From: Lentzea fradiae
GTDB taxonomy: Bacteria; Actinomycetota; Actinomycetes; Mycobacteriales; Pseudonocardiaceae
Direction: 5' to 3'
Assembly (NCBI RefSeq): GCF_900100955.1
Contig: NZ_FNCC01000001.1
Span: 620,001 to 684,000, forward strand
Length of the DNA: 64,000 nucleotides
Numbering within the stretch: position 1 is the stretch's first letter; every line of letters starts with the position of its first letter. Below, in pieces: positions 2,236 to 17,151 of this stretch. The translations under genes were made by a program, and so were the position numbers. The notes under the pieces were generated by a model. That model was not told where the DNA came from. It saw nothing but the letters and a program-made list of their open reading frames with translations, and did no database searches.

Positions 2236-2336
2236 ACCAGCGGATTCTCCGCGGCGTGGACTGCCGGGCCGATGGTGGAAATCCCGCGCGGAGCGCGTGG
2301 TCGCGCATTACCGTTCGGGCCGGGGGAAGGGGGAAC

Positions 2337-5105
2337 GTGGCCGGTTCGCAACTGATCGGGCGTGAGCGTGAACTCGTTGCGGCGGCTGAGGTCCTCGCAC
2401 GGGCGCAGGAGTGCACGGCCCGGTTGCTGTTGTCGGGTGAGGCGGGCATCGGCAAGAGCGTGCTGTGGGAACAGGTGCTGGACGACGCCGCCGCGCGCGG
2501 CTTCACGGTCCTGTCGTGCCGCCCGGTCGAGTCGGAGGCGCAGCTGGCCTTCGGCGGCCTGGTCGACCTGTTCGACCGCGTGCCCGACCGCGCCTTCGCG
2601 CTCCTGCCGGGACCGCAGCGCACAGCGCTGGAGGTGGCGTTGCTGCGCCGCCAGGCCGACGACGGCGCCGGAGACCCGCGTGCGGTGTGCCTGGCGACGC
2701 TCAACGTCGTCCGCTCGCTGGCCGCGGACGCGCCGCTCGTGCTCGCCGTGGACGACGCGCAGTGGCTGGACGAGTCCAGCGGCCGGGTGCTGGAGTACGT
2801 GGCGCGCAGGCTTTCCGGCGAACGGGTGGCGGTCGTGATGTCCGTCCGCGACGAGACCGGCGGCCACGTGCCGCCGGGGCTGTCCGGGCAGGACCACCTG
2901 GTGCACCTGCGCCTGACCGGGCTGAGCATCGGCGCCCTGCACCGGCTCGTGCGCTCGGCGGTCGGGTCACCGCTGCCGCGTCCCGCGCTGGTCCGGTTGC
3001 AGCGGGCCTGCGGTGGCAACCCGTTCTACGCGCTGGAGCTCGCCGGGGTGCTGGACCGCGACGGCGGCGCACCGGGGCTGCCACTGCCGGCCCCCCGCGC
3101 GTTGAGCGAGCTGCTCGCGAACCGGGTGGTCGCGCTTCCACCGCGCAGCCGGGACGTCCTGCTCCACGCCTCGGCGCTGGCGCAGCCCACCGTCGACGTG
3201 CTGGCCGCGGTGCTGGGCGACGCGGAGGAGGTCCACGAGGCGCTGGCCGACGCGGAGGACCACGGCGTGGTGGAGGTGCTGGCGGGAGCCGTGCGCTTCA
3301 CCCACCCGTTGCTGCGTTCCGCGGTCTACTCGGCCGCGCCGAGCACGCGCCGCCTGCGGGTGCACCGGCGCCTGGCCGCCGTGCTGGACGATCCCGAGAC
3401 CCGCGCGCTGCACCTGGCGTTCGGCGCGGGCGGCCCGGCCCCCGAGGTGGCCGTGGCGCTGGACGAGGCGGCGCACCTCGCCCGGCAGCGCGGTGCGCTG
3501 GAGAACGCCGCCCGGATGTGGGAGCTGGCGGCGGGCCACGTCACCGACCCGGTGCGCAGGGCGGCGCTGCTCGTCCCGGCCGCGCAGTGCCTGTTCTCGG
3601 CGGGGGACGCGCGGCGGGCCAGGGAGCTGTTCGAGACGGCGGTGGCCGGGGTGCCCGCCGGGCCGGAACGCGCGGAGGCGTTGCTGGAGCTGGCGATCGT
3701 CGTGTTCTTCGGGGGCGGCCCCGTCGAGGCCACCGCGCTCAGCGACGAGGCGCTGGCCTGCGCCGGTGCCGACCCGGTGCTGCGCGCCACGATCTACCTG
3801 CGCCGGTCGTTGTTCTGCCAGAACGACACGGCCGAGCGCTACCGCAACACGCGCCAGGCGCTCGACGAGATCACCGGTCACGAGAGCACGGCACCCGACG
3901 ACATGGTGGCGTGCACCCTGGTCAGCAGCGCCTACTACCGGATGCTCGCCGGTGACGGCCTGCACGCCGACGACCTGCGGCGGGCCGGGGAACTGGTCTC
4001 GCCGAGCCGGCAGTCCCGCGACGCGCGGACGACCCGCAGCCTGCTGCGGGTGATGGCCAAGTACCTCGACCCGGTGCGCGGGCGGCAGGAGTTCACGCGC
4101 TCGCACCGCGCCGCGCTCGACCGCGGCGAGGAGGCCAACGCCGTGCACGAGCTGGTCCAGCTGGCGGAGCTGGACGTCTGGCTCGGCGACTGGGACCTGG
4201 CCGCCCGGGAGGCCGCGGAAGCCGTCGACGCCGCCGAGCAGACCGGGCAGCCGCCGTGGACCGCTTACGCCCTCTACACCCGCGCCCTCGTCGAAGCCCA
4301 CCGCGGCGACCACGACGCGGCCTGGGAGACGGCGGTGGAGGGGCTGCGCATCGCCACCGGCCTGGACGACTCGTGGGTCACCGTGCACCTGAGGGGCGTG
4401 CTGGGCTTCACCGAGCTGTCCCGGCGCGAGCCCGCGGCGGCCAGGACGCACCTGACGGCCGCGCTGGAGGTCTGCGCGGCGGTGGGGATGGGCGACTTCC
4501 CCGGCAGCTCCCTCTACGGCGACCTGATCGAGGTGACCACCGAGCTGGGCCTGGTCGCCGAGGCCGAGGAGCTGCTGGCGGAGCTGGAGCTGCGCCGCGA
4601 CCGCGCGCCGCGGCCCTGGATCACCGCCGTGGCCGCCCGGTCGGCCGCGCTGGTGCGGATGGCGCGCGGCGACCTGGCGGGCGCGCAGGCGGCCCTGGAC
4701 CGCGCACCGGACCTGCCGATGCCCTTCGACCAGGCCCGCACCGGCCTGGTGCGGGGCCGGGTGCTGCGGCGGTGCAAGGAGAAGCTGGCCGCGCGGGAGG
4801 TGCTGCTGGCCGCCCGGCAGGAGTTCGACAGGCTGGGCGCGCCCCGCTGGGTGGAGGAGGCCGACACCGAGCTGGGCAGGCTCGGGTTGCGCCGCGACGA
4901 CGAGCACGGCCTCACCGTGACCGAGCTGCACGTCGCCCGGCTGGTGGCGGGAGGGCTGAGCAACCGCGAGGTGGCCGCGGCGGCGTACGTGACGACGAAG
5001 ACGGTCGAGGCGCACCTGAGCAGGATCTACCGCAAGACGGGCGTGCGGTCCCGCCGCGAGCTGAGCAGGCTCGAGTTCCTGAGGGAGCCGCGCGAGCAAC
5101 TGTAG
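2337..5105 (+). CDS. LuxR-family large ATP-binding (LAL) regulator
   Basis: 922 residues from GTG 2337, which has GGGGGAAC just upstream; the reading frame stays open further upstream but that part is low-complexity and looks non-coding. The N-terminal AAA/STAND ATPase has Walker A 'SGEAGIGKS' near residue 35 and Walker B 'LVLAVDDAQWLD' near 140. A long helical TPR-like middle follows. The C-terminus is a LuxR/GerE helix-turn-helix (LTVTELHVARLVAGGLSNRE, then TTKTVEAHLSRIYRKTGV). LAL proteins are ATP-dependent transcription activators, often of antibiotic or sugar-utilisation genes. The target is unknown. It is divergent from the NB-ARC protein over a gap of about 100 bp and precedes the small protein/MocR pair. 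Confidence 0.88.
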   Translation: MAGSQLIGRERELVAAAEVLARAQECTARLLLSGEAGIGKSVLWEQVLDDAAARGFTVLSCRPVESEAQLAFGGLVDLFDRVPDRAFALLPGPQRTALEVALLRRQADDGAGDPRAVCLATLNVVRSLAADAPLVLAVDDAQWLDESSGRVLEYVARRLSGERVAVVMSVRDETGGHVPPGLSGQDHLVHLRLTGLSIGALHRLVRSAVGSPLPRPALVRLQRACGGNPFYALELAGVLDRDGGAPGLPLPAPRALSELLANRVVALPPRSRDVLLHASALAQPTVDVLAAVLGDAEEVHEALADAEDHGVVEVLAGAVRFTHPLLRSAVYSAAPSTRRLRVHRRLAAVLDDPETRALHLAFGAGGPAPEVAVALDEAAHLARQRGALENAARMWELAAGHVTDPVRRAALLVPAAQCLFSAGDARRARELFETAVAGVPAGPERAEALLELAIVVFFGGGPVEATALSDEALACAGADPVLRATIYLRRSLFCQNDTAERYRNTRQALDEITGHESTAPDDMVACTLVSSAYYRMLAGDGLHADDLRRAGELVSPSRQSRDARTTRSLLRVMAKYLDPVRGRQEFTRSHRAALDRGEEANAVHELVQLAELDVWLGDWDLAAREAAEAVDAAEQTGQPPWTAYALYTRALVEAHRGDHDAAWETAVEGLRIATGLDDSWVTVHLRGVLGFTELSRREPAAARTHLTAALEVCAAVGMGDFPGSSLYGDLIEVTTELGLVAEAEELLAELELRRDRAPRPWITAVAARSAALVRMARGDLAGAQAALDRAPDLPMPFDQARTGLVRGRVLRRCKEKLAAREVLLAARQEFDRLGAPRWVEEADTELGRLGLRRDDEHGLTVTELHVARLVAGGLSNREVAAAAYVTTKTVEAHLSRIYRKTGVRSRRELSRLEFLREPREQL

Positions 5106-5154
5106 GGTCCCTCCCCGATTCGTCAGGGGGGTCCCCGGCCGCAGGCTTGGACCC

Positions 5155-5454
5155 ATGACGACGCAGCCGGCGGGGCAGCTGTTCCTGGTGGAGTGCTACC
5201 TGCCCGGCGCCGCCGCGGACGAGATCGCCGCGGCGCTGTCGTCCGTGATGGCCGCGGACCGGGGGACCGCGGCGTTCGTCTGCTGCCTGGCCATCCCGGG
5301 CGACGACACCTATTTCTGCCTCTTCAGCGGTGGCACGCCGGACCGCCTGGAGCTGACCTTCCACAGGGCGGGGGTGCCCTTCGAACGGATCGTCGAGGCC
5401 AGGGAGGTCGGTGTGGACGCGGCTGGGGCGGCGTTCGCACTACAGGGGGAATGA
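5155..5454 (+). CDS. Small hypothetical protein (DUF4242-like fold possible)
   Basis: 99 residues with an internal pattern resembling small ferredoxin-fold (alpha+beta barrel) proteins: a strand 'FLVECYLPG', a helix containing 'ADEIAAALSS', then 'YFCLFSGGTPDRLELTFHRAGVPFERIVEAREV'-type strand/helix content. This loosely recalls DUF4242 / nickel-sensor SCO4226-like proteins, but I would not assign a function. Its stop overlaps the start of the following MocR-like regulator (ATGA), so the two are translationally coupled and probably act together, for instance as ligand sensor and regulator (inference). Confidence 0.6.
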   Translation: MTTQPAGQLFLVECYLPGAAADEIAAALSSVMAADRGTAAFVCCLAIPGDDTYFCLFSGGTPDRLELTFHRAGVPFERIVEAREVGVDAAGAAFALQGE

Positions 5455-6848
5455 TGCGCGACTCGGAGAGCTTGACGGTCCCGATCGGACTGGACCGGGA
5501 AGCCCGGCGCCCGTTGCAGGACCAGCTGGCCGACCAGCTGGCGGCCGCGGTCGACCGGGGCCAGCTCGCACGCGGCCACCGGCTGCCGTCCACGCGAACG
5601 CTCTCCGAGCGGCTGGACGTGTCACGCGGCGTCGCACTCGCCGCCTACGAGATCCTCTACTCCCGCGGCTACCTGGAGAGCCGCCGGGGTTCCGGCACCT
5701 ACGTGGCCGGCCGGACGGCGGCACGTCCCGCGACCCCGCCCGCGGCCGCACCACGCGGTGAGCCGATCGACTGCACACCCGGCCAGGCGACCCGCGACGG
5801 GTTCCCGCTGGCCGCGTGGCGGGCGGCGTGGCGGCACGCGAGCTTCCCGCCGCCGCCGGCGTGCGACCTGCCCGCCGGTGGCCTGCCGGAGCTGCGCGGG
5901 GCGATCGGGGAGCACCTGCGCCGCACCCGCGGCCTGGTGGCGCAGGAGCACGAGGTGCTGATCACCACCAGCGCGTCCAGGGGGATCGAGCACGTGCTCG
6001 ACCTGCTGGGAGCCGGGGGACGGCGCGTCGCCGTGCAGGACCCGGCCCCGCCCGCGCTGAGCCGGGCCGTCGGGAACGCCGGGGCCACCGCCGTGGCGCT
6101 GCCCGCGACCAGGGACGGCCAGTGGACCGGCGTGGTGCCACCGTCCTGCACGGCCGTCGTGGTCTCACCCGACGGCCCGGCCCCCCGCGGCACGGTCCTG
6201 CCCGCGCTGCGACGGCGGCAGCTCGCGGACTGGGCCCGCCGCGAGAACGGCCACCTGGTGGCGGTGGCGCAGGACCACATCGTGCCCTCCGCCGCCCCAC
6301 TGCCCAGGCTGCTGCACCTGGCCGGCCCGCGGGTCGTGGTGGTGGGCGACTTCCGCACCGTCTTCGCACCGTCGCTGCGCGTCGGCTACGTGCTGGTCCA
6401 CCGCGGTTTGCTCGCCGACGCCCCGAGGGACGCGTGCCGAGGACACGACCAACCGTCCGCCGTGGCCCAGTCCGCGATGGCCCACCTGCTGGCAGAGGGA
6501 CACGTGACGCGTCGCCTACGCCGCCTGGCGCGCCTGTTCGAGTGCAAGGACGCCCTGGTGCGAACCACCCTCGAACCCTTGGCGCGCCTCACACCGGGCA
6601 CGCCGGGCTCCGTCGTGGTGCACCTGCCCGACGACGTCCGTGCCGAGCACGTGCACGCCGAACTGAGCCTGCGCGGCGTGGTGGTGCCCACGCTCGCGTC
6701 CTATCACCTGCCCGGCCGCCCGGCGGACAACGCGCTGGTGCTCGGGTACGGACATCTGCCGGACCGGGCGCTGCGCACGACACTGCACGAGCTGGCCGCC
6801 GTGCTGCGCAGCGACCACACCGTTGTCGGCCGGGCGTGCGGGCTTTAG
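5451..6848 (+). CDS. MocR/PdxR-like GntR regulator with degenerate aminotransferase domain
   Basis: 465 residues. Residues about 15-80 form a GntR winged helix (RPLQDQLADQLAAAVDRGQL, LPSTRTLSERLDVSRGVALA, SRRGSGTYVAG). The rest is a fold-type I aminotransferase-like domain, as in MocR regulators such as PdxR and GabR. In this family the PLP-binding lysine lies in 'GTFSKTLFPALRLGY'; here the aligned segment is 'GDFRTVFAPSLRVGY', so the lysine is replaced by Thr303. The 'EDDYDSEFR' loop is also altered (AQDHIVPS). The domain probably cannot form an internal aldimine and may sense another ligand or none. The ATG at 5451 overlaps the upstream stop. DNA-binding role is known for the family; loss of PLP chemistry is inferred. 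Confidence 0.85.
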   Translation: MMRDSESLTVPIGLDREARRPLQDQLADQLAAAVDRGQLARGHRLPSTRTLSERLDVSRGVALAAYEILYSRGYLESRRGSGTYVAGRTAARPATPPAAAPRGEPIDCTPGQATRDGFPLAAWRAAWRHASFPPPPACDLPAGGLPELRGAIGEHLRRTRGLVAQEHEVLITTSASRGIEHVLDLLGAGGRRVAVQDPAPPALSRAVGNAGATAVALPATRDGQWTGVVPPSCTAVVVSPDGPAPRGTVLPALRRRQLADWARRENGHLVAVAQDHIVPSAAPLPRLLHLAGPRVVVVGDFRTVFAPSLRVGYVLVHRGLLADAPRDACRGHDQPSAVAQSAMAHLLAEGHVTRRLRRLARLFECKDALVRTTLEPLARLTPGTPGSVVVHLPDDVRAEHVHAELSLRGVVVPTLASYHLPGRPADNALVLGYGHLPDRALRTTLHELAAVLRSDHTVVGRACGL

Positions 6849-6921
6849 CCCTCACCGGCCGCTTCAGGACTCCGCGCGACTTGCGCGGTGACACAGGGAA
6901 GACGAACAGGGGAGAGTTCTC

Positions 6922-7089
6922 GTGAAGATTCGTGAATCGGCGGTTGCGGTCGCGGCGGTCGTGGCCGCTCTCGCACTCGTGATCGGTACGGCTCAGGGGG
7001 CAGTCGGCCCGCAGGACTCGGGCAGCACGTCGGCCATGCCGGGCAAGCCCGGCACCGGCTCGGACGGTGAGGGCGGCGGCAGCGCGTGA
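6922..7089 (+). CDS. Tiny secreted peptide (55 aa)
   Basis: GTG start at 6922 with GGGGAG upstream. The product has a short basic N-terminus (MKIRES), a hydrophobic core AVAVAAVVAALALVIG and a probable signal-peptidase site near 'AQGAVG', leaving a mature tail of about 28 residues rich in Gly, Ser and Pro (for example PGKPGTGSDGEGGGSA). No cysteine or lipobox. Too short for a family assignment. It is followed by a strong terminator at 7111-7146. It could be a small exported or cell-wall-associated peptide; function unknown. Confidence 0.55.
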   Translation: MKIRESAVAVAAVVAALALVIGTAQGAVGPQDSGSTSAMPGKPGTGSDGEGGGSA

Positions 7090-7110
7090 ACTGAGCCGGA
7101 AACCGAAAAC

Positions 7111-7146
7111 CGGAGCCGTTCCCTTCCTCGGAAGGGGACGGCTCCG
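7111..7146 (+). terminator. Hairpin terminator after the 55-aa peptide gene
   Basis: Two 16-base arms, CGGAGCCGTTCCCTTC and GAAGGGGACGGCTCCG, pair with a single G-T wobble around a short loop. It lies 21 bp past the stop at 7089 and about 105 bp before the convergent end of the tatA gene, so it may serve both strands. No T-tract, as usual in actinomycetes. Confidence 0.75.
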
Positions 7147-7250
7147 GCCGTTGCCGGCAACCCGCGACGGCGGGAACAGGTCTCGTCCTTCGGCCGAACC
7201 CGAAGGCGTCCGCGACCCGCGGGGCGAACCACCGCAGATCCCGGACACCT

Positions 7251-7394
7251 TCACTCCCCGTCCCGCTCGTCCCCGCGGCGCAGCTCCCGCCGCGCGTCCG
7301 AAAGGGACCGGGCGAGCTTCGGCAGTCGGCTGGCGCCGAACAGCAGCACCACCACCAGCAGGATCAGCAGGATCTCCGTAGTACCCAGTGGCAC
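7251..7394 (-). CDS. tatA: TatA/TatE-type Sec-independent translocase subunit
   Basis: 47 residues: MPLGTTEILLILLVVVLLFG then ASRLPKLARSLSDARRELRR and a charged tail. This is the TatA pattern: one N-terminal transmembrane helix, the FG hinge, then an amphipathic helix with 'LPKLARSL'. At 47 residues it is shorter than most actinobacterial TatA proteins, which carry a longer acidic tail. GTG at 7394 is preceded by GAGGAG. It starts 10 bp after the stop of the 1354-residue protein and two genes after a protein with a Tat signal, so it is the third gene of a Tat-substrate operon and probably a TatA dedicated to it (inference). TatB and TatC are not nearby. Confidence 0.88.
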   Translation of the reverse strand: MPLGTTEILLILLVVVLLFGASRLPKLARSLSDARRELRRGDERDGE

Positions 7395-7404
7395 GGCACT
7401 CTCC

Positions 7405-10400
7405 TCAGCTCAGCGCGACGGTGTCGGTGTGGACGAGGCGGGTGGCGGCGGTGCCGCCGTTGCCGTCGCGGTGCACCTCGAACTCCTCCACGACCAGCCG
7501 CAGCGCGCCCGCACCGGTGGGCAGCGAGACGGTGCCCGACCAGGTGTGGACGCCGTTCTCGCTGGTGGGGGTGGTGATCGTGGTGGCGAAGCCGCCACCG
7601 GCCGGCTGCCAGCGCAGCACCGGGTCCGTCACGCCGTCGAGCTGCCGCTCCACCGTCACCCTGACCTCGTTCAGGCGGCCGGAGTCGGTGAGCAGCGGGC
7701 CGGGGCCGACCAGCTGGACGGTTCGCGTGGAGCCGCTGCCGGTGACGACCACCGTACGGTCGGGGGCGAGCTGGGTGAAGTCCGCGGTCGCCACGGCGGA
7801 CAGGTAGCAGCCGTACAGCGAGTTGGGCTGGTAGCGGGCCAGTGCCAGGCGCACGAACGGGAAGTAGCCCGGCAACGGGTCGTCGCCCGACCTCGTGATG
7901 CGGATGTCGCAGTACCACAGGCCGCGCACCTCGTCGTAGGCCACGTCGTAGGCGGCGAACCGCAGGCCCGTGTCCGGGAACTCCGGCACCGTCATGCCCG
8001 AGCCGGAGCCGTAGACGGCGGCCTGCGGGAAGGAGCTCGGCGTGACGTCGTCGGGCAGGCCGGACGAGTGCATCGTGCCGTCGTTGCCCCACATCGTCAC
8101 CACGCCCTGCATGTGCTCCGGCACGTCCGTGACCACGTCCGGCCACATCAGGACGGCGAGCTTCTCCCCGGCGCCGCTGGAGAACCACGGCCGTTCCAGG
8201 TACACCCGCAGCCCGCCGCCGTGCCGCACGCTCCGGCCGGGCGCCGGGTTCTCCCAGCGGAAGATCGGCACGATCTGACGGATCTTGGGTGCGGCGGGAC
8301 GGGCCGTGCTGGGGATGTTCTGCTCGAAGACCGCGGGGGCGCTGCGGGTCTCCGGGCGGACGAACGACACCTGAAGCGTGCGCGGCGAGGTGAGCCTGCC
8401 GCCGTCCGTGCGGTTGAACGTGCCGTTGGCCGCGTTGGTGACCACGTAGTCGCCGGGTGCCTTGGCCGCGTCGCTTCCCACCGGGCCGGGCAGGTACTGC
8501 TGCCCGGTCTCCTCGTCGACGACGGCCAGGTGGGCGGGGTCGATCGGCACGCCGAGGGTGTGGCTCACGCCGTTGAACGCGACTTCCCGGTGTTCCCGGA
8601 AGAACTCGCTGAAGCGCGTCACCGCCCGCACCTCGTACCGGACGCGGCGGTGCTTGGTGTCGCCGAACTCGTGGCGTGCCTGGAACTCCAGCGTCTCCGT
8701 GTCCGGTGCGGGCCCGTGGGTCCTGTCGACCGTCACGGTGATCGGGGCTGCCCGGAAGTCCTGCACCTGCACCGGGTTCACGCCGTCGTCCACCGGCATC
8801 TGCCAGCGCCCGGCGAACTCCACGCCGCCGCTGCTCTTGCGGCTGATCCTCATGGACGGCCCGAGCACCGCGTGGGTGGAGCCGAGCTGTCCCTCCGCCG
8901 GTCTCCTGGCGGTGACCGAGCTGATGTCCGGCACGGCGAGCGGTGTGCGCACGGCGTGCGTCAGGGTGAGCGTCCTGGCGGGCGTGAACATCCAGTGCCG
9001 CCCACCGACGATCGAGTCCCGCAGAGCGGTGACGTTCACCTGGTCGGCCGGATGGGCGGCGTTCCAGGCGGTCGCGGCTTTCTCGACCAACGGCCACAGC
9101 GCCATCAGGTCGAGGTCGCCGCTGTCGAACTGGGTGGAGAGCTGGAGCTGGTAGCTGTCGCCCGGCATCAGCCGCACGGTCAGCACGCGGCTCGTCCCGT
9201 TCCACGACCAGCCGGGTGTGCCCTGCTGCAGGCGCAGGCGGAAACCCTTGACGTCGGGCCAGGCGGTGCCCGTGGGCTGGCCGATCGTGAACGTCGTGGT
9301 GCTGCCGGGGAGCCCGCGCACCAGGACGCGCCGGGCCAGCGGTTCCGGCAGGTAGGGAACGGGCAGCGTGTCGGTGTCGTAGTACCAGTGGTCGTCCGCC
9401 GGTGCGGGCAGGGTGTGCGCCGAGGAGTGCTGCTCCAGCACGGCGGCGTCGCGGGCGGCCAGGTCGGCGTACGCGACGGCGTCCATCGGCCTGCCGTCGA
9501 CGGCCCGGTCGAGCATCCCGTGCTGTTCGGCGACCTGGACCGTGCTGCGGGGCGGCAGCACGTGGCGGTCGGCGGTGCCGACGTTCGTGTCGCTGCCCGT
9601 GTTGCCGCGCAACACCATCAGCTCCAGCGACTCGGCCTCGCCCGGCACCGAGCGCAGCAGCACCTCGGGGGCGGGCACCGGTTCGAACCGCCGGAACGTC
9701 TCGGCCGCGGTGGACAGCGCCGAGTCGGTCATCGCGTCGGCCTGCTCGGCGGTCACCGAGTTGCCGGCGATGTCCACGGCGCGCGCCCGCAGCCGGTACC
9801 GCCTGCCGAACCGAAGGCGCGGCAACGCACGGGCGCTGAACTTCGTGCGGAACGGGAAGTCCTTGTCCACCAACCCGTCGTTGTCCGCGAGCCCGTTGTC
9901 ACCGGCGAGTCCCTTGCCGGGGCGGCCGACGGCCAGGCTCCAGCCCGCCCAGTGCATCAGCGACTCCTGGACGTACAGGTCCTGGTCGCCCTCGGCGCCG
10001 GAGGTCGTCGCGGCGGTCTGCGCCGCCGTCTCCTCCAGCACGGCGACCTCGTCGCCGGTGCGGTCGAACATGTAGGCGCCGTCACGCCACATCAGGGAGA
10101 ACCACCTGCCGGTCGTCTCGTCGCGCACGTCCCACCGGTAGCCCCGCACCACGTCGTCGGCGCTGAGCGCGATGTCGTCGGTGATCTTCCAGCCGTCCTG
10201 CCGGAACGCGGCGTCGTTGTTCTTGCGGTTGCGGTCGATCGTCTCGGCCAGCCGGGCCGCCCGCGACAGCCTGCCGACCGAGAACCCGGCCGTGTGCAGC
10301 GAGGGGAGGGCTTGCCGGTCCGGGGTGGCCGAGCTGCGCTTGAGCACCTGCCCGCCCTGCTCGTAGCGGGCGCGGGTCACGGTGTCGGCGAACTGGCGCA

Positions 10401-11469
10401 CGGCGAGCGCCGCGCTGTCCGGGTCGACCTGCACCACGGCGAACCGGTCGGTGTCGCCCACGAGCAGCATCCCGTCGCGCAGGTCGCTGCCGGAGTCCTG
10501 CGGGACCGCGGTGAACACGTGCCGGACGCCCTTGCCGACCTTGCACCGCATGGTGGGCCGCACGTGCACGTCGGCTTCCTTGCCCAGCACCGGTTTCAGG
10601 TCGGTGACCACGCGGACCGCCATCACCCGCTCGTTGCCGCGGACCAGGCTCAGCAGCGCGGGGTCGGCCGACTCGAAGTCGAGCACCAGGCCGAGCAGCC
10701 GCTGGAGGTGGTCGTACTCGCGGGTCATCGAGACGACCTGGTGGAAGTCGAGCTTCGGCTGGGTGAGCTTCGGCGGGTCCCCGGCGGGTGGCTGCTCCCG
10801 CCTGCGGTGGAACCGCTCGGCCTGAAGGAAGGACAACGCGATGCCGTCGGCGGTCGTGGCGTCGCCCGGCCGGAACGGCACCGCCCACCTGATCGGCTTC
10901 TGCGGCCCGCCGGGGCCGAGGTCGAACAGCTGCTCCAGCTCCTCGCGCAGCCGTTGCTTGCGCAGCAGCCCCGGCCCGGTCCTGTCGCTGTCGAACTCGA
11001 ACCCGACGGGGCCGAACCCGTCGGCAGCGGCCAGCGCGTCGAGCGTGGGGTGCTCCTCGGCGTACCGCGCGCCGAACCGGCCGTAGCGCTCGTGCACGAA
11101 GTCGCGCACGTGCCGGGTGGGGTAGGACCGGAGCCGGCGTTCGGCGAGCTTCGGCAGGGCGTGCCCCGCGACGTGCGACGACAGGGCGAACAACGCCGTC
11201 CAGCGGGCGCTGACCGGCTTGGACACGCGGGTGGCGGAGACGCGCAGGGGGCTGCCGCCCTGGCCGGAGAGGTCGGTGAGCTCCAGCCCGAACGTCGCCG
11301 CGGACACCGTGGCCGGCCAGTCCTGCCAGTCGGGGAAGTCCCGCAGCGTGCCGGACGCGTTCGGCGCGGTGGTCAGCCGCGGTGCGACGTGCACCGAGAA
11401 GAAGACCTTGTCCAGGCCCGCGGCGATCCCGTTGGGCAGCACGGTCCAGGTGATGGTCTGACTGGTCAT
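7405..11469 (-). CDS. Large uncharacterised protein of the Tat operon (1354 aa)
   Basis: ATG at 11469 (MTSQTITWTVLPNGI) lies 2 bp after the stop of the upstream gene (TGA-TC-ATG). The frame stays open further upstream but there it overlaps the upstream gene and is a shadow. The sequence is 1354 residues, rich in predicted strands, with no signal peptide, no transmembrane helix and no enzyme motif I recognise. It contains long hydrophilic beta-type stretches and a C-terminal region ('VRLVVEEFEVHRDGNG'-like) that looks like a beta-sandwich. Because it has no export signal yet sits between a Tat substrate and TatA, I infer that it forms a complex with the 1063-residue protein and may be exported by hitchhiking. 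Function unknown. Confidence 0.8.
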   Translation of the reverse strand: MTSQTITWTVLPNGIAAGLDKVFFSVHVAPRLTTAPNASGTLRDFPDWQDWPATVSAATFGLELTDLSGQGGSPLRVSATRVSKPVSARWTALFALSSHVAGHALPKLAERRLRSYPTRHVRDFVHERYGRFGARYAEEHPTLDALAAADGFGPVGFEFDSDRTGPGLLRKQRLREELEQLFDLGPGGPQKPIRWAVPFRPGDATTADGIALSFLQAERFHRRREQPPAGDPPKLTQPKLDFHQVVSMTREYDHLQRLLGLVLDFESADPALLSLVRGNERVMAVRVVTDLKPVLGKEADVHVRPTMRCKVGKGVRHVFTAVPQDSGSDLRDGMLLVGDTDRFAVVQVDPDSAALAVRQFADTVTRARYEQGGQVLKRSSATPDRQALPSLHTAGFSVGRLSRAARLAETIDRNRKNNDAAFRQDGWKITDDIALSADDVVRGYRWDVRDETTGRWFSLMWRDGAYMFDRTGDEVAVLEETAAQTAATTSGAEGDQDLYVQESLMHWAGWSLAVGRPGKGLAGDNGLADNDGLVDKDFPFRTKFSARALPRLRFGRRYRLRARAVDIAGNSVTAEQADAMTDSALSTAAETFRRFEPVPAPEVLLRSVPGEAESLELMVLRGNTGSDTNVGTADRHVLPPRSTVQVAEQHGMLDRAVDGRPMDAVAYADLAARDAAVLEQHSSAHTLPAPADDHWYYDTDTLPVPYLPEPLARRVLVRGLPGSTTTFTIGQPTGTAWPDVKGFRLRLQQGTPGWSWNGTSRVLTVRLMPGDSYQLQLSTQFDSGDLDLMALWPLVEKAATAWNAAHPADQVNVTALRDSIVGGRHWMFTPARTLTLTHAVRTPLAVPDISSVTARRPAEGQLGSTHAVLGPSMRISRKSSGGVEFAGRWQMPVDDGVNPVQVQDFRAAPITVTVDRTHGPAPDTETLEFQARHEFGDTKHRRVRYEVRAVTRFSEFFREHREVAFNGVSHTLGVPIDPAHLAVVDEETGQQYLPGPVGSDAAKAPGDYVVTNAANGTFNRTDGGRLTSPRTLQVSFVRPETRSAPAVFEQNIPSTARPAAPKIRQIVPIFRWENPAPGRSVRHGGGLRVYLERPWFSSGAGEKLAVLMWPDVVTDVPEHMQGVVTMWGNDGTMHSSGLPDDVTPSSFPQAAVYGSGSGMTVPEFPDTGLRFAAYDVAYDEVRGLWYCDIRITRSGDDPLPGYFPFVRLALARYQPNSLYGCYLSAVATADFTQLAPDRTVVVTGSGSTRTVQLVGPGPLLTDSGRLNEVRVTVERQLDGVTDPVLRWQPAGGGFATTITTPTSENGVHTWSGTVSLPTGAGALRLVVEEFEVHRDGNGGTAATRLVHTDTVALS

Positions 11470-11471
11470 GA

Positions 11472-14400
11472 TCAGGCTCCCACGGGGGCGAACGCGGCGC
11501 AGTAGCCCGCCCAGTCCTGCTGGGTGAAGGCGGCGCCGAACGGGTGAGCGGGGATCGCGGGCGCGGCGGCCAGTGCCCGGCGCTGCCCGGCGGCGGAGCG
11601 CTTCGCCGCGGGCGGCGGGCTCTTGGCGAACTCGCGCTGGGTGCGGAAGGTGTGCGTCTCGCTGATGAAGAAGCACTCGATGGAGACCGTCACGTACGCC
11701 TCGCCGAACAGCACCGAGCTGCCGTCGGTCTTCTGCAGGTAGGTGAGGCCCATGTAGAACTCGACCGACACGGTGCAGATGCCGAAGATCTTCAACGCCC
11801 CGCGGATCCGCAGGAACGCGGCGAGGCCGACCTGCTGGCGCACCACCTCCGCGCCGTTCTCGGTGACCTTGACCTTCTCCAGCAGGTAGGTGATGCCGCC
11901 TGCGACCTCGACGACACCGGAGCCGATGCCCACGTCCAGCGACATCCCCGCCCCGAAGACGAAGCCGATCTCCAGCCGTTCCATCCCGTCGGCGCCCAGC
12001 ACCACGTCCACGTGGCCGCCGCCGTTGAACCCGAAGACGCGCAGCTGGAACGGCCGTTCGCGGCTGTTGAGCCCGAAGCTGAGCCGCACCGGCGTGCCGT
12101 CGAACGGCAGCTCCACGGCGGCGCGGAACGCGAGCTCGGTGATCGCCATCGGGCCCAGCGAGATCTCCGGCAGCTGGAACCGCAGCCCCGCCTTGACGCT
12201 CGCCGTCGACGCGGTGATCTCCAGCTTGCCGCCCAGGAACGAGAACTTCTCGGCGATGTCCTGCACCCACTGGAGGCTCTTCTGGAAGTTCACCCGCCGC
12301 ACGTGGCAGTCCACCTGCGTCTTCGCGCCGCTGGCCGAGGCGTAGCGCAGGTAGTCGAACTCCAGGCTGACCCAGTGGTTCGGCTTGCCGAGCAGGTACA
12401 GCGTGAAGTCCCGCAGCTCGGCGTTGAGACGGACACCGGACTCCGCGCCGTCCCGGTAGGGGGTGCTGTAGACGGAGCTGAGGATCAGCGGGTGCGGCGT
12501 CGACTGCCCCGGCTCGAACCCCGGCGCCGCCTTCACCTTCGGCATCCAGTACATCGACCACTCGTCGACCCCGAGCTCCGGCACGCGGCGGTGACCCATC
12601 TTGGGCACCAGGTCCGAGTTGGCCAGTGAACCCTCCGGCGACGGCAGCAGGTCCTTGAGCGGCAGACCGCCGAGGAACTTGGCCTTGCCGCCGTCACCGA
12701 ACAGCAGCGCCGGGTCGTACTGGTCCTTCGCCACGTCGATCGGCCAGGCGGTGCCGGGCCCGTACTTGGCCGAGATCGACTGGATGTCACCGGCGGGGGT
12801 CGCCAGGCCGCCGGTCGTGGCGGGGGAGACCGCGAGAGGCGTCGGCGGCGCGGACGAGTGCAGCGCCAGGAAGACGCCGCCGGCGTTCGCTCCGCTTCCC
12901 ATGCCGCTGTCCAGGTAGGGCTGGGCGAACTCGAACGCCGTCGCGGGCAGCGCGGCGCCGGTCACCGCGGAGACCTCGGGCAGCCGCAGCACCGCCCGTT
13001 CCATGCGCGGCTGGAACGGGGCCCTGCCGGTCGCCGAGGACAGGACGCGGGAGTGCAGCACGATCCGGTCCACGGTGGCGGTGGTGCTGCCCGCCGGGTG
13101 CGTGCCGCGGTGCGCCAGGGCGATCTTGCGGCCCGCCGTGTCGATGGTGCGCAGGGCGACGGCGTCGGGGGACGTGCCGGTGTTGTGGGCGTTGCGGATG
13201 CCGTTGAGCAGGCTGGTGGAGGTGGTCGTGGAGCCCGGCACGAACACGACCGGCGCGGTGAAGTCGACCTCGCCGCCTTCGTGGTCGATGCCGCGCAGGT
13301 GGAACAGGAACGGCGTCGTCGGCGCGGTCGCGGCCTTCGGCACGAAGGAGGCGTACGTCCCGGTGGGTTTCGCCGGGTCGGCGAAGTCCTTGAAGGCGGC
13401 CAGCTCCGGCGTCCTGCGGGTGAGCACGCGGATCGCGGCGAACGGCAGCTCACGGCCGTCCTTCTCGAGCGCTTCGTCGTTCCAGTAGGTGACCGTGGGC
13501 TGCTGCACCACGACGTACTGGGTCTGGCGCAGGTAGGCGTACCACGGGCCGGGACTGCCGTCGGGGTTCGGTCGGCGGGCCACCCGGCGTTCGGCGACCT
13601 GGATCAGGGAGGCGCGGTGGCCGTAGGGCCACAGGTACCCCGCGTCCTCGGTGCGCACCTCGTGGTCGCGGCCCAGGGTGGCGCGGTGCCGCCAGCCCAC
13701 GAGCTGCAGGTCGGCGGTGGGGCGGTAGTTCCACCGGCCCTCGGCCTCGAAGCTCGCGCCGAGGCTGCTCAGCGTCAGCCCGGACACCTCGACCGGCTTG
13801 GGCAGCGACGGGTCGACCCCGTTGCGCAGCGCCGGGTCGGCCGACAACCGGACGATGGAGAACCGCTGCTTCGGCGTCAGCACGTGCGTGATGTCCTCGG
13901 AGGAGGGCACGGAGGACGGGGAACGCACCCACGCCGCCATCTGCGGGTCGGCGAGCCAGATCGCCCGCATCTCGCGGGCCCGCGGGTCGTCGTCGACCAC
14001 TGCCCCGTTCCTGGCACCGAGCCGGGTGTGCCACAGCTCGGTCCAGTCGTTGCGGGTCACCGGCGTGGTCGCGTGCTTCCAGCCCTCGGTCTCGTCCGGC
14101 GACAACAGCATCCGCCACGGCAGCTCCAGCGCGGTCTCCGTGTCGATGGGCGCCACCAGCGCGGACGCGGTCTGCGTGGTGGTGGCGGTCGGGGCCAGCC
14201 TGGGGACGAACGCCGTCCACGCCAGCAGCGCGTCGACCGTCAGCGCCATCGGCAGCGCCGAGGTGATGTCGAAGGCGAGGCGGCTCGGTCCCGAGACCCT
14301 GGTGGGCAACGGCAGGTCACCCAGGCCGAGCCGGTTCGTCAGCGTCCGCTCCAGCACCGCCTGCGGCGGGAAGTGCACCACCAGGTACGCGCCGCCCGAG

Positions 14401-14663
14401 CCGACCTTGCGCAGCTGCGCGCCGGACACGTCGGCGTTGAACAGGTCGATCCGCAGGTTGAGCGAGTCCTCCCGGCGCCGCAGGTGCAGCGTCCGGGTGG
14501 CGGTGGCGGTCAGCGCGTAGCCGGCGGTCGCGTCACCGGGCGCCGTGCCCCCGGACCTGGCGACCGCCAGCACCAGGCCACCCGCACCCGTCAGATACAG
14601 GAACCGGCGGCGGCTGACGGTCTTGCCCTGGTCGTCCCGCGCCGGCAGTTCGTTCTCACTCAT
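11472..14663 (-). CDS. Large Tat-exported uncharacterised protein (1063 aa)
   Basis: The N-terminus carries a twin-arginine signal: SRRRFLYLTG at residues 17-26, then a hydrophobic 'AGGLVLAVA' region. The remainder is about 1000 residues of predicted beta-rich sequence. The C-terminal 250 residues show repeated alternating amphipathic strands (FGAGMSLDVGIGSGVVEVAG, GLAAFLRIRGALKIFG, VSVEFYMGLTYLQ, AYVTVSIECFFISET) like a layered beta structure seen in other very large uncharacterised bacterial proteins. No catalytic motif found. ATG 14663 has AGGA upstream. First gene of the operon with the 1354-residue protein and TatA. Role in a folded, exported cell-surface or secreted complex is inferred. 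Confidence 0.82.
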   Translation of the reverse strand: MSENELPARDDQGKTVSRRRFLYLTGAGGLVLAVARSGGTAPGDATAGYALTATATRTLHLRRREDSLNLRIDLFNADVSGAQLRKVGSGGAYLVVHFPPQAVLERTLTNRLGLGDLPLPTRVSGPSRLAFDITSALPMALTVDALLAWTAFVPRLAPTATTTQTASALVAPIDTETALELPWRMLLSPDETEGWKHATTPVTRNDWTELWHTRLGARNGAVVDDDPRAREMRAIWLADPQMAAWVRSPSSVPSSEDITHVLTPKQRFSIVRLSADPALRNGVDPSLPKPVEVSGLTLSSLGASFEAEGRWNYRPTADLQLVGWRHRATLGRDHEVRTEDAGYLWPYGHRASLIQVAERRVARRPNPDGSPGPWYAYLRQTQYVVVQQPTVTYWNDEALEKDGRELPFAAIRVLTRRTPELAAFKDFADPAKPTGTYASFVPKAATAPTTPFLFHLRGIDHEGGEVDFTAPVVFVPGSTTTSTSLLNGIRNAHNTGTSPDAVALRTIDTAGRKIALAHRGTHPAGSTTATVDRIVLHSRVLSSATGRAPFQPRMERAVLRLPEVSAVTGAALPATAFEFAQPYLDSGMGSGANAGGVFLALHSSAPPTPLAVSPATTGGLATPAGDIQSISAKYGPGTAWPIDVAKDQYDPALLFGDGGKAKFLGGLPLKDLLPSPEGSLANSDLVPKMGHRRVPELGVDEWSMYWMPKVKAAPGFEPGQSTPHPLILSSVYSTPYRDGAESGVRLNAELRDFTLYLLGKPNHWVSLEFDYLRYASASGAKTQVDCHVRRVNFQKSLQWVQDIAEKFSFLGGKLEITASTASVKAGLRFQLPEISLGPMAITELAFRAAVELPFDGTPVRLSFGLNSRERPFQLRVFGFNGGGHVDVVLGADGMERLEIGFVFGAGMSLDVGIGSGVVEVAGGITYLLEKVKVTENGAEVVRQQVGLAAFLRIRGALKIFGICTVSVEFYMGLTYLQKTDGSSVLFGEAYVTVSIECFFISETHTFRTQREFAKSPPPAAKRSAAGQRRALAAAPAIPAHPFGAAFTQQDWAGYCAAFAPVGA

Positions 14664-14889
14664 CCGTCGTCCTCACCACGTCCGGGATGTACGCATCGCC
14701 CCAATGTCGTGCGGGCCCTCGCGAGGCGGCAGATCCACTACCCGGTGGCCTGCACAGGTCCACTGCCGCAGTGAGCACTGGCCCGGTGGGAAGCCCGCGT
14801 TTGCGGACCTGTCGTGGCCGGGTGGACGCCCACAGGATGACGACGCGCGGCGAAGGGCCGCGCATCCGAGGAACGAACGAGGGGGCTCG

Positions 14890-15252
14890 ATGAAAAATCT
14901 CCTGCGCAAGGCGGGAAAGGCCGCGGTGGCGGGCGCGCTGGCGCTCGGCGTCGTGGCGGGCTCGGCGGTGGCGGCCACCGCGGCGCCACCCGGATCGGTG
15001 ATCTTGTCCACGCCGAAGCGGAACCTGTACTGCACCCTGGGCACCAGCACGACGGCGGGCTTCACCCACGGTGCCGCGTCCTGCTACAACGGCCTGTGGC
15101 CCGCTGAGGCAGGCTGGTGGATCGTCGTGACGTGCGTCGGTGGGTCCACGGCGACCAGCGGCCTCGTGGCGTCCTCGCCCTACCAGTGGAACTCGGTGAG
15201 CGCGGGCTGGTGCTGGTACGGCGTCGCGGACATCTCCGTCCGGGAGCCGTGA
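14890..15252 (+). CDS. Small secreted four-cysteine protein (120 aa)
   Basis: ATG at 14890 after GAGGGGG. Residues 1-32 form a Sec signal peptide (MKNLLRKAGKAAVAGALALG then a stretch ending ATAA). The mature part of about 88 residues has four cysteines (48, 65, 82, 108), suggesting two disulphides, and many aromatic residues (WWIVV, YQWNS, WCWYG). It does not match a family I can name; the size and pattern recall small secreted inhibitors or beta-sandwich proteins. It is divergent from the Tat operon over about 225 bp and is followed by a strong hairpin. Confidence 0.7.
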   Translation: MKNLLRKAGKAAVAGALALGVVAGSAVAATAAPPGSVILSTPKRNLYCTLGTSTTAGFTHGAASCYNGLWPAEAGWWIVVTCVGGSTATSGLVASSPYQWNSVSAGWCWYGVADISVREP

Positions 15253-15556
15253 CCGGGCTCGGGCGGCTCTCGTGCCGGGTGTGCCGGGTTCGGCACACCC
15301 GGCACCCTTCTGCGTCCACATCGGACGGTTTTGCGAAGTCGCGGGTTCTCCCGCCGACCGTCCCGCTTGGACTTCCGTCGATGAGCCGGGAACCGATCGC
15401 GCTGTTTCCCCGACTACTGGTGCGTGACGAGCTGGAGTGCGCCCGTGGCCGTGGCCGGATCCGGGCGGATGTTGGCTTCGCGGCCACTTCTCGGCGTCGT
15501 GGCGGACGGTGACGATGGGGGTCGTCAACGGTCACCGGTCGTGAGGGAGGCTGGTC
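15253..15556. other. Intergenic region before the ABC transporter operon
   Basis: Apart from the terminator at 15272-15305 I see no gene. It should hold the promoter of the DJ-1/ABC operon. No IdeR/DmdR-like (TTAGGTTAGG) or Zur-like element is visible, so metal control is not shown by the sequence. Confidence 0.5.
15272..15305 (+). terminator. Hairpin terminator after the four-cysteine protein gene
   Basis: A perfect 14-base inverted repeat, GTGCCGGGTGTGCC and GGCACACCCGGCAC, around a 6-base loop, 19 bp after the stop at 15252. Confidence 0.75.
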
Positions 15557-16174
15557 TTGCGGGTCCACATCGTCGTCTTCGACGGCATGGACGACCTGGA
15601 CGTCGTCGGGCCGTTCGCGGTGCTGGGCATGGCCGGACGGGCCGGGCTGGGGGTGAGCGTGCGGCTGACCGCGCCCGGTGACCCGCCGCACGCGACCACC
15701 AGGGGCGGGTTGCCGCTGCACCCGGAACCGTGGGCGCCGCGGGACGCGGACGTGCTCCTCGTGCCGGGTGGCGGGTACGGGCAGGGGGACGGCGCCGGTG
15801 TGCGTGCCGAGATCGCCGAGGGACGGGTGCCGGCCGCGCTGGCCGACGCCGTCCGGCCGGACCTCGTGCTGGCATCGGTGTGCACGGGTGCGTTGCTGCT
15901 GGCGGCGGCCGGGGTGGTGACAGGACGCCCGTGCACCACGCACCACCGGGCGGTCGGCGACCTGGTCGAAGCCGGTGGGGTGCACGTCGACGCACGGGTG
16001 GTCGACGACGGTGACCTGGTGACGGCCGGTGGCGTCACGTCCGGGCTGGACCTGGCGCTGTGGCTGGTGGAGAGGTTCCGCGGGCCCGACGCGGCGGAAC
16101 GGGTGCAAAGCGCCCTGGAGTACGAAAGGCGCGAACCGCTGTGGCTGCGTGCCGGGGAAGTGGCGGCGCGATGA
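15557..16174 (+). CDS. DJ-1/PfpI family protein, isonitrile-hydratase-like
   Basis: 205 residues from TTG 15557, chosen because GGGAGG lies just upstream and the protein then begins MRVHIVVFDGMDDLDVVGPF, the typical first strand and helix of the family. The nucleophile elbow is 'ASVCTGALLLAAAG' with Cys109, followed by 'CTTHH', close to the 'CTGxLxLxxAG...TTHW' pattern shared by isonitrile hydratase (InhA) and GlxA-type regulators. There is no DNA-binding domain, so this is an enzyme-like stand-alone member. Its stop overlaps the ATG of the solute-binding lipoprotein (ATGA), so it is the first gene of the importer operon and may process the imported chelate or a related small molecule (inference). 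Confidence 0.78.
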   Translation: MRVHIVVFDGMDDLDVVGPFAVLGMAGRAGLGVSVRLTAPGDPPHATTRGGLPLHPEPWAPRDADVLLVPGGGYGQGDGAGVRAEIAEGRVPAALADAVRPDLVLASVCTGALLLAAAGVVTGRPCTTHHRAVGDLVEAGGVHVDARVVDDGDLVTAGGVTSGLDLALWLVERFRGPDAAERVQSALEYERREPLWLRAGEVAAR

Positions 16175-17151
16175 AGCGAACGGTGCTGGTTCTGGCCGTG
16201 GTGCTGCCGCTGACGGCGTGCGGCACCGCCAATCCGTCGCCCACGTCCGTCGCGAGTGGACAGATCACGGTGAAGGACTGCGCGGGGAAGGACGTCACGT
16301 TCGACAAGGTGCCGGAGCGGGTGGTGACGCTCGACGGCTACGCGGCGCAGACCCTCGTGCGGCTCGGGGTCGCGGACAGGGTCGTGGGCACCGGGTTTCC
16401 CGCGCCGTTCGGCGCCGACAGCGCGCCGCACGCGGAACGGCTGGCGCGGATCCCGGTCCTCGCGGAACGGGTGCCGGTCAACGAGGTCGTGGCCGCGCAG
16501 CAGCCCGACCTCGTGCTGACGAGCTTCGAGTCGTTCGGTGGCCCGCCCGGCAGCCCGAAGGAGGCCGACCTCGTCACGATGGGGGCCAAGGGGCTCACGT
16601 CCTGCCTGAAGGGGTCGAGCGAAGGCCCGTTGACGGATCTCTCGCCCACCTACGAGTACGTGCGCAAGCTCGGCGCCGTGTTCGGGGTGCGGGACCGTGC
16701 GGAACAGCTCGTCGCGGAGCTGGAGGGCCGCGCGCAGGCCGTCGCGGCCAAGGTGACGGGGGACAGGCCGAAGGTGCTGGTGCTTCAGGACAACCCGGTG
16801 GCCGGGCAGCCGTTGCGGACCTCGGGCGCGGGCACGATCGCGCACGCCCTGATCAGCATGGCCGGTGGGCAGAGCGTCTTCTCCGACGTGTCGTCGATGC
16901 ACGCGGAGATCTCGCCGGAAGAGGTCGTGCGCCGCGACCCGGAGGTCGTCTGGGTCATCACGGACTACACGTTCGCCAAGCTCAAGGGGCAGGAGCTGGT
17001 GGCGGCGGTGCGGACGAACCCGTTGCTGGCCGGCACCACCGCGGGCAGGCAGAGCAAGGTCGTCTCGACCTCGCAGTACCTGGTGTCGTTCCCCAGCCCG
17101 CTCAACCTCGACGGGCTGGAACAGCTCGCGAACGCGCTGCACGCCGGCTGA
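16171..17151 (+). CDS. Metal-chelate ABC transporter substrate-binding lipoprotein
   Basis: 326 residues. Lipobox 'LPLTAC' with Cys17 after a short signal. The body is a FecB/BtuF-like periplasmic-binding-protein type 2 (class III, two lobes joined by a long helix): 'VPERVVTLDGYAAQTLVRLG', 'EVVAAQQPDLVLTS', 'EEVVRRDPEVVWVI'. Such proteins bind ferric siderophores, haem or cobalamin at the membrane outer face. The ligand cannot be read from sequence. It overlaps the upstream DJ-1 gene and is followed 1 bp later by the permease. Could serve the NRPS metallophore 7 kb downstream, but this is only proximity. Confidence 0.88.
   Translation: MKRTVLVLAVVLPLTACGTANPSPTSVASGQITVKDCAGKDVTFDKVPERVVTLDGYAAQTLVRLGVADRVVGTGFPAPFGADSAPHAERLARIPVLAERVPVNEVVAAQQPDLVLTSFESFGGPPGSPKEADLVTMGAKGLTSCLKGSSEGPLTDLSPTYEYVRKLGAVFGVRDRAEQLVAELEGRAQAVAAKVTGDRPKVLVLQDNPVAGQPLRTSGAGTIAHALISMAGGQSVFSDVSSMHAEISPEEVVRRDPEVVWVITDYTFAKLKGQELVAAVRTNPLLAGTTAGRQSKVVSTSQYLVSFPSPLNLDGLEQLANALHAG

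Follow-up and report, generated by a model that had tools for sequence, protein, structure and literature searches.

In Escherichia coli the HybOC genes encode a subunit with a signal for twin-arginine translocation (Tat) together with a signal-less partner, and in Bacillus subtilis the gene of the substrate PhoD lies beside those of the components TatAd and TatCd. Here a window of 64,000 nucleotides from Lentzea fradiae (contig NZ_FNCC01000001.1 of assembly GCF_900100955.1, positions 620,001 to 684,000 of the forward strand) was analysed, with the focus on three adjoining minus-strand genes, referred to as A, B and tatA, which encode two giant proteins, the first with a Tat-type signal, and a short TatA. 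The PhoD locus includes TatC, whereas this operon has TatA only.

Two further described systems come close to this layout, and the papers on them are cited here and below from excerpts of their text. PaoABC is an E. coli redox enzyme of 135 kDa whose signal-less partners cross Tat, and a periplasmic band of ~270 kDa, perhaps a dimer, is described for it, which the excerpt does not state to cross as such (PMC4273604). In Campylobacter jejuni, tatA2 is situated at the distal end of the nap operon in a genome with a full TatA; its product of 57 aa is TatE-like, lacks the conserved Phe of the amphipathic helix and is suggested to depend on TatA1 for its proper function, and the gene was judged not specifically required for NapA, though NapA activity fell by about half (PMC4148689). 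As to size, a 2026 review lists FdnGH, with 142 kDa, as one of the largest Tat substrates known (PMC13186574).

Like PaoABC and HybOC, the A-B pair has one subunit with a Tat signal and a partner without (PMC4273604), but it differs from PaoABC in that it would be beta-rich and, if A and B join 1:1, of ~257 kDa. The TatA of the window resembles C. jejuni TatA2 in being short, in ending a substrate operon, in having a full TatA elsewhere in the genome and in lacking the conserved Phe, while the nap substrate is a nitrate reductase and those of the window are two giant proteins without recognised family (PMC4148689). An accessory tatA that ends a Tat-substrate operon already has precedent, and the Tat layout of the window, with a substrate, a likely hitchhiker and an accessory TatA, is a variation on a known theme. 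The original prediction for this locus knew of no described system with such a composition, which stands for A and B in the libraries searched but not for the Tat side, where nap-tatA2 and PaoABC preceded it. The features of the operon are as follows.

11472-14663, minus strand: gene A, ATG start, 1063 aa, 114.3 kDa, Tat-type signal SRRRFL
14547-14615, minus strand: core of the Tat-type signal of A, residues 17-39, SRRRFLYLTGAGGLVLAVARSGG
11619-12227, minus strand: residues 813-1015 of A, amphipathic beta-meander, barrel-like in the predicted model
11475-11567, minus strand: tail of A, residues 1033-1063, a low-confidence linker followed by a conserved W-x-x-Y-C-x-A-F helix
7405-11469, minus strand: gene B, ATG start at 11469, 1354 aa, 147.6 kDa, no signal peptide seen
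7251-7394, minus strand: tatA, GTG start, 47 aa, one of three TatA/B-family genes in the genome
7091-7160, minus strand: terminator-like hairpin 3' of tatA, -46.5 kcal/mol, z -5.2

Pairing of A and B and their families

To describe the pair, 70 loci were collected (L019-L074, L093-L105 and the window), consisting of 51 from a contig scan with B, five from plasmids, 12 from the same phylum, one from the same family and the window itself. Near copies such as L024, L036 and L058 were counted separately, while L001-L018 and L075-L092 were excluded as further or shorter copies of counted places, except for L013 and its companions (G006), a separate place in the same genus that lies outside the 70 and where the two genes have the same order and orientation. 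In 67 of the 70 loci, which are not all independent, A is followed by B on the same strand; the exceptions are two loci in which B begins at the edge of the available stretch (L029, L069) and one with only a B fragment of 411 aa (L062). When 396 genomes of the same phylum were searched, that of L. fradiae included, A was found in at least 15 and B in at least 13, all 13 being among the 15, and the 13 B genes adjoin A. The two A matches without B, in G118 and G398, are weak partial ones, as is the pair of G182 (L104). Distances between A proteins follow those between B proteins with r 0.94 over 66 loci, compared with 0.24 for the best of 500 permutations, and with r 0.51 over 1913 deep pairs. 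The fixed order, the co-occurrence and the correlated distances identify A and B, as far as sequence comparison can, as a functional two-gene unit, and the original prediction that the two large proteins belong together is borne out.

The three genes with their sizes and their gaps of 2 bp (A-B) and 10 bp (B-tatA), as first described, agree with the open reading frame coordinates; the frame of B is open from 12561. Aligned with Lentzea jiangxiensis, the window shows three blocks between 15255 and 2273 with 81–87% DNA identity, and the ratio of non-synonymous to synonymous changes (dN/dS) is 0.60 for A, 0.44 for B and 0.06 for TatA, the last from 47 codons only. Because of these blocks, the dN/dS values and the recurring A-B order, the gene layout is not due to chance.

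The hosts of the pair belong to Actinomycetota, Chloroflexota, Armatimonadota, Bacteroidota, Chlorobiota, Cyanobacteriota, Bacillota and Aminicenantes, with Pseudomonadota represented by plasmids. Among plasmids 11 records match B, six of them covering at least 80% of it, and five of the 11 entered the locus set. Within Lentzea the occurrence is sporadic, A being present in 4 of 24 genomes, and L. jiangxiensis carries two copies of the pair, one with the Tat motif and tatA (L019) and a longer one with neither (L063). The neighbouring genes are mixed across relatives, so that none of them is put forward as a functional partner. Beta-propeller proteins (WD40, RCC1, Beta_propel, BNR) do recur: a WD40 gene stands between A and B in L044 (by Pfam) and in L046 and L065 (by likeness), a WD40 part is fused to A in L061 (by Pfam) and its close relative L063, RCC1 repeats adjoin the pair in L036 (by Pfam) and its near copy L058, and further cases near A-B are found by Pfam in L023 and L056.

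Neither A nor B has a match in Pfam, PHROG or PADLOC, and no NCBIfam family scores above its cut-off, A giving only a sub-cut-off hit to a Tat-signal model. The PADLOC anti-phage models gave no match for A, B or TatA at E up to 1, no match to B was found in 50,697 phage records, none of 29 pattern matches in viral contigs was confirmed, and no viral structure matched A with E ≤ 0.001. A search of the PDB sequences with A and B as single sequences gave nothing better than E 0.26, the value of the one weak match to A, and their profiles gave no match; A and B show no detectable relatedness to each other. The N-terminal extensions of ten long A proteins contain no Pfam family above cut-off. A and B are thus families without a name in the libraries searched.

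The beta-meander is among the most conserved stretches of A. Behind it, the predicted local distance difference test (pLDDT) of the model falls under 50 at residues 1033-1043, ahead of the conserved tail helix. With a pattern formulated after the sequences had been inspected, 61 of the 67 A proteins were found to carry W-x-x-Y-C-x-A-F within their final 45 aa, compared with 1 of 1455 other open reading frames of at least 300 aa, and the tail is a candidate docking peptide. The predicted model of B, covering residues 155-1354 only, is a chain of Ig/Fn3-like beta-sandwiches. Matches by VIA-align to the PDB fall mainly on residues 679-1035 of A and on model residues 687-1200 of B, and Foldseek gave template modelling scores (TM-scores) by query length of 0.05-0.13 among the matches listed, so that no fold family is claimed for either protein. 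Outer-membrane-type beta-barrels (CymA, OmpG) resemble A in only a part and with low TM-scores, and many of the A-B hosts are Gram-positive, including Bacillota and Actinomycetota. A peptidoglycan-binding-like insert (PF01471) is present in all six Streptomyces B proteins tested (L037, L040, L043, L051, L053, L054; E 6e-6 to 4e-4, three of the six at or above cut-off) and in 3 of the 22 members of alignment A4.

Export signals and the short TatA

The N-terminus of A reads MSENELPARDDQGKTVSRRRFLYLTGAGGLVLAV, with SRRRFL followed by a hydrophobic stretch, and a similar motif stands ahead of the same domain in 15 relatives. Motif and hydrophobic stretch in front of the A domain are hence seen in 16 of 67 A proteins, the window included, distributed over Actinomycetota, Chloroflexota, Armatimonadota, Bacteroidota, Chlorobiota, Aminicenantes and one unassigned metagenome-assembled genome (MAG); the count includes one borderline case (L020, 0.85 on the motif scale) and leaves out L026, L034 and L050, where the motif lies inside the domain, and L094, which has no proper hydrophobic core. 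The twin-arginine signal first proposed for A is, given this recurrence, plausibly right. In a quick tree of 62 A proteins, with an arbitrary midpoint root and long branches for L102, L097, L096 and L105, the Tat label needs 5 changes compared with 14.4 for shuffled labels. Such scatter would fit an old exported state lost several times and, equally, repeated gain.

A scan of the B starts for Tat motifs gave 2 matches in 67 pairs, neither of them convincing, as one lies upstream of the likely start codon (L074) and the other is partial (L104); this absence assumes that B starts after A ends. On that assumption there is little room for a signal, since the conserved B domain starts at most 60 bp from the A stop in 52 of the 67 pairs and at most 110 bp in 58, the more distant ones including the three with a gene between A and B (L044, L046, L065). 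Without a convincing signal B would need to hitchhike on A to leave the cell, and the sequences fit a hitchhiker layout, in which a signal-less B is encoded with a signal-bearing A.

That the 47-aa product is a TatA was confirmed by the Pfam family TatA_B_E (E 1.7e-11, 43.6 bits against a cut-off of 21), while NCBIfam TIGR01411 gave 49 bits, below its cut-off of 53.9; the hydrophobic stretch and the FG hinge are present. In a conservation check set beforehand, tatA was found next to A-B in only 3 of the 70 loci by a neighbour scan with two TatA queries (E up to 1) that could miss a distant TatA and that had flanks of at least 500 bases on both sides in 61 of 67 pairs. The three are the window, L. 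jiangxiensis (L019) and L022, a Candidatus Zipacnadia MAG of the Armatimonadota with tatA ~300-360 bp upstream of A at the contig end, and in all three A has the Tat motif. With so few cases tatA is not a general part of A-B, and the "own" TatA of the original prediction has to be given up as a core component. TatA/B-family genes are present in all 33 genomes searched, which hold 34 of the 51 loci of the B scan. Among 24 Lentzea genomes a TatA frame of 52-55 aa occurs only in that of the window and in L. jiangxiensis, both with a Tat-type A-B. At a different place the L. fradiae genome carries a further TatA (L002), which keeps the usual Gly and Phe. On the analogy of C. jejuni TatA2, the operon TatA would most likely assist the main TatA rather than replace it.

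Surroundings of the operon

A, B and tatA presumably share one transcript. Behind tatA of L. jiangxiensis a stem similar to the window's hairpin can be read from the sequence, without folding. Simple promoter and terminator scans gave nothing on the minus strand, the terminator scan, which was based on T-runs, not picking up the tatA hairpin, and a search with Rfam of positions 5000-17000 revealed no regulatory RNA above gathering scores. The repeats seen in 6900-15400 resemble what GC-rich DNA would give by chance; the GC content of the window is ~0.67-0.75 in 2-kb steps and the genome comprises 8.5 Mb.

Divergent from A, a 120-aa protein with a secretion-signal-like start is encoded at 14890-15252 (plus strand), in a region that aligns with L. 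jiangxiensis. On the other side an NB-ARC/TPR protein (304-2235, minus strand) adjoins a large AAA/LuxR-type regulator (2118-5105, plus strand). Positions 24330-44543 and 16060-17151 encode a non-ribosomal peptide synthetase with a TubC_N docking domain, an Irp3-like thiazolinyl imine reductase, a methyltransferase, a chorismate-binding enzyme and a Peripla_BP_2 protein, which together look like a thiazoline siderophore cluster. A link between A-B and this cluster is not supported, since the alignment with L. jiangxiensis stops at ~15255, short of it.

Interpretation of the operon

The explanation that we prefer, with a probability of about 0.45 for the whole of it, is that A and B are two subunits of one large beta-rich complex, which in this lineage would fold in the cytoplasm and be exported by the Tat translocase by means of the signal of A, B being carried along as a signal-less hitchhiker. 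The operon TatA would supplement the housekeeping Tat components as an accessory subunit, possibly because the cargo far exceeds what Tat usually carries (the ~257 kDa of a 1:1 complex are the sum of B and of 109.7 kDa for A after removal of residues 1-45, where the position of the cut is a guess). Outside the membrane B would serve as an Ig/Fn3-like stalk, and the role of the amphipathic meander of A, which the model shows as barrel-like, would be to bind a hydrophobic ligand or to contact a membrane.

Several findings weigh against this explanation. The Tat-signal model TIGR01409 scores A at 10 bits with a cut-off of 16.7, and by the motif used a Tat signal is lacking in 51 of the 67 A proteins (L035, L038 and L056 among them are cut or short at the N-terminus and cannot be judged), which means that in some hosts the pair has to function without Tat. 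The A partners of the insert-bearing Streptomyces B proteins show no Tat signal either, a misfit with export by Tat alone. No natural Tat cargo as large as 257 kDa was found in the excerpts of open-licence literature, hence either the load carried by Tat is larger here or B is not exported along with A. The operon TatA carries Ser and Leu at the positions of Gly and Phe in the housekeeping-like copy L002 and in the copy of L022, and next to most pairs, that of the near Tat-type relative L070 among them, no tatA was found. Three TatA/B matches occur in 10 of the 24 Lentzea genomes, in most of which the extra copies are longer and score better, and since the two genomes that have the short TatA are closely related, a single event may account for both.

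The findings on TatA bear on another possibility, namely that A and B are exported by the housekeeping Tat system and that tatA shares the operon by coincidence, as a bystander or as an additional TatA of general use. The rarity of tatA beside the pair, the extra TatA/B copies in Lentzea, the usual Gly and Phe kept by the second genomic TatA (L002) and the judgement, in the excerpt, that tatA2 of C. jejuni is not specifically required for NapA (PMC4148689) all agree with it. The short TatA has, on the other hand, undergone few amino-acid changes between the two species, as its dN/dS shows, is absent from the 22 Lentzea genomes without a Tat-type pair and is encoded 10 bp behind B with a hairpin after it, and we regard a bystander tatA as doubtful, though a real contender. 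It is unlikely that only A crosses, or is anchored by an uncleaved signal, with B as its cytoplasmic partner or chaperone: B exceeds A in size and resembles it in rate of divergence, unlike the known small Tat chaperones, its modelled chain of Ig/Fn3-like sandwiches would be of a kind common in extracellular proteins, and all six Streptomyces B proteins tested carry the peptidoglycan-binding-like insert. The lack of a convincing B signal in 67 pairs and a joint size beyond the 142 kDa of FdnGH (PMC13186574) would nevertheless be accounted for if B stayed inside. Still less probable, in our view, is a basically cytoplasmic machine, possibly tied to beta-propeller proteins, with the Tat signal marking side branches; it would explain the 51 A proteins without signal as well as the WD40 parts between A and B or fused to A and the RCC1 repeats beside the pair, but the Tat motifs are scattered over deep branches and several phyla in the quick midpoint-rooted tree.

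An extension of the preferred explanation, by which A-B would be an undescribed class of two-part giant secreted machine, distributed over several bacterial phyla, that in the Tat-type lineages crosses Tat folded at ~257 kDa, almost double the 142 kDa of FdnGH, with the Lentzea TatA recruited to widen the pore, is rather unlikely as a whole. If A and B do cross together, folded export would reach a size not recorded before, and if a folded crossing at 257 kDa is true, it would become possible to test directly how large a Tat cargo can be and what part an accessory TatA plays. Loci that differ by nature in the presence of tatA or of the Tat signal, even within L. jiangxiensis, could then be compared to probe the contribution of an additional TatA. 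Independently of how they may be exported, A and B form a widespread and nearly always paired family of giant proteins, nameless in the libraries searched.

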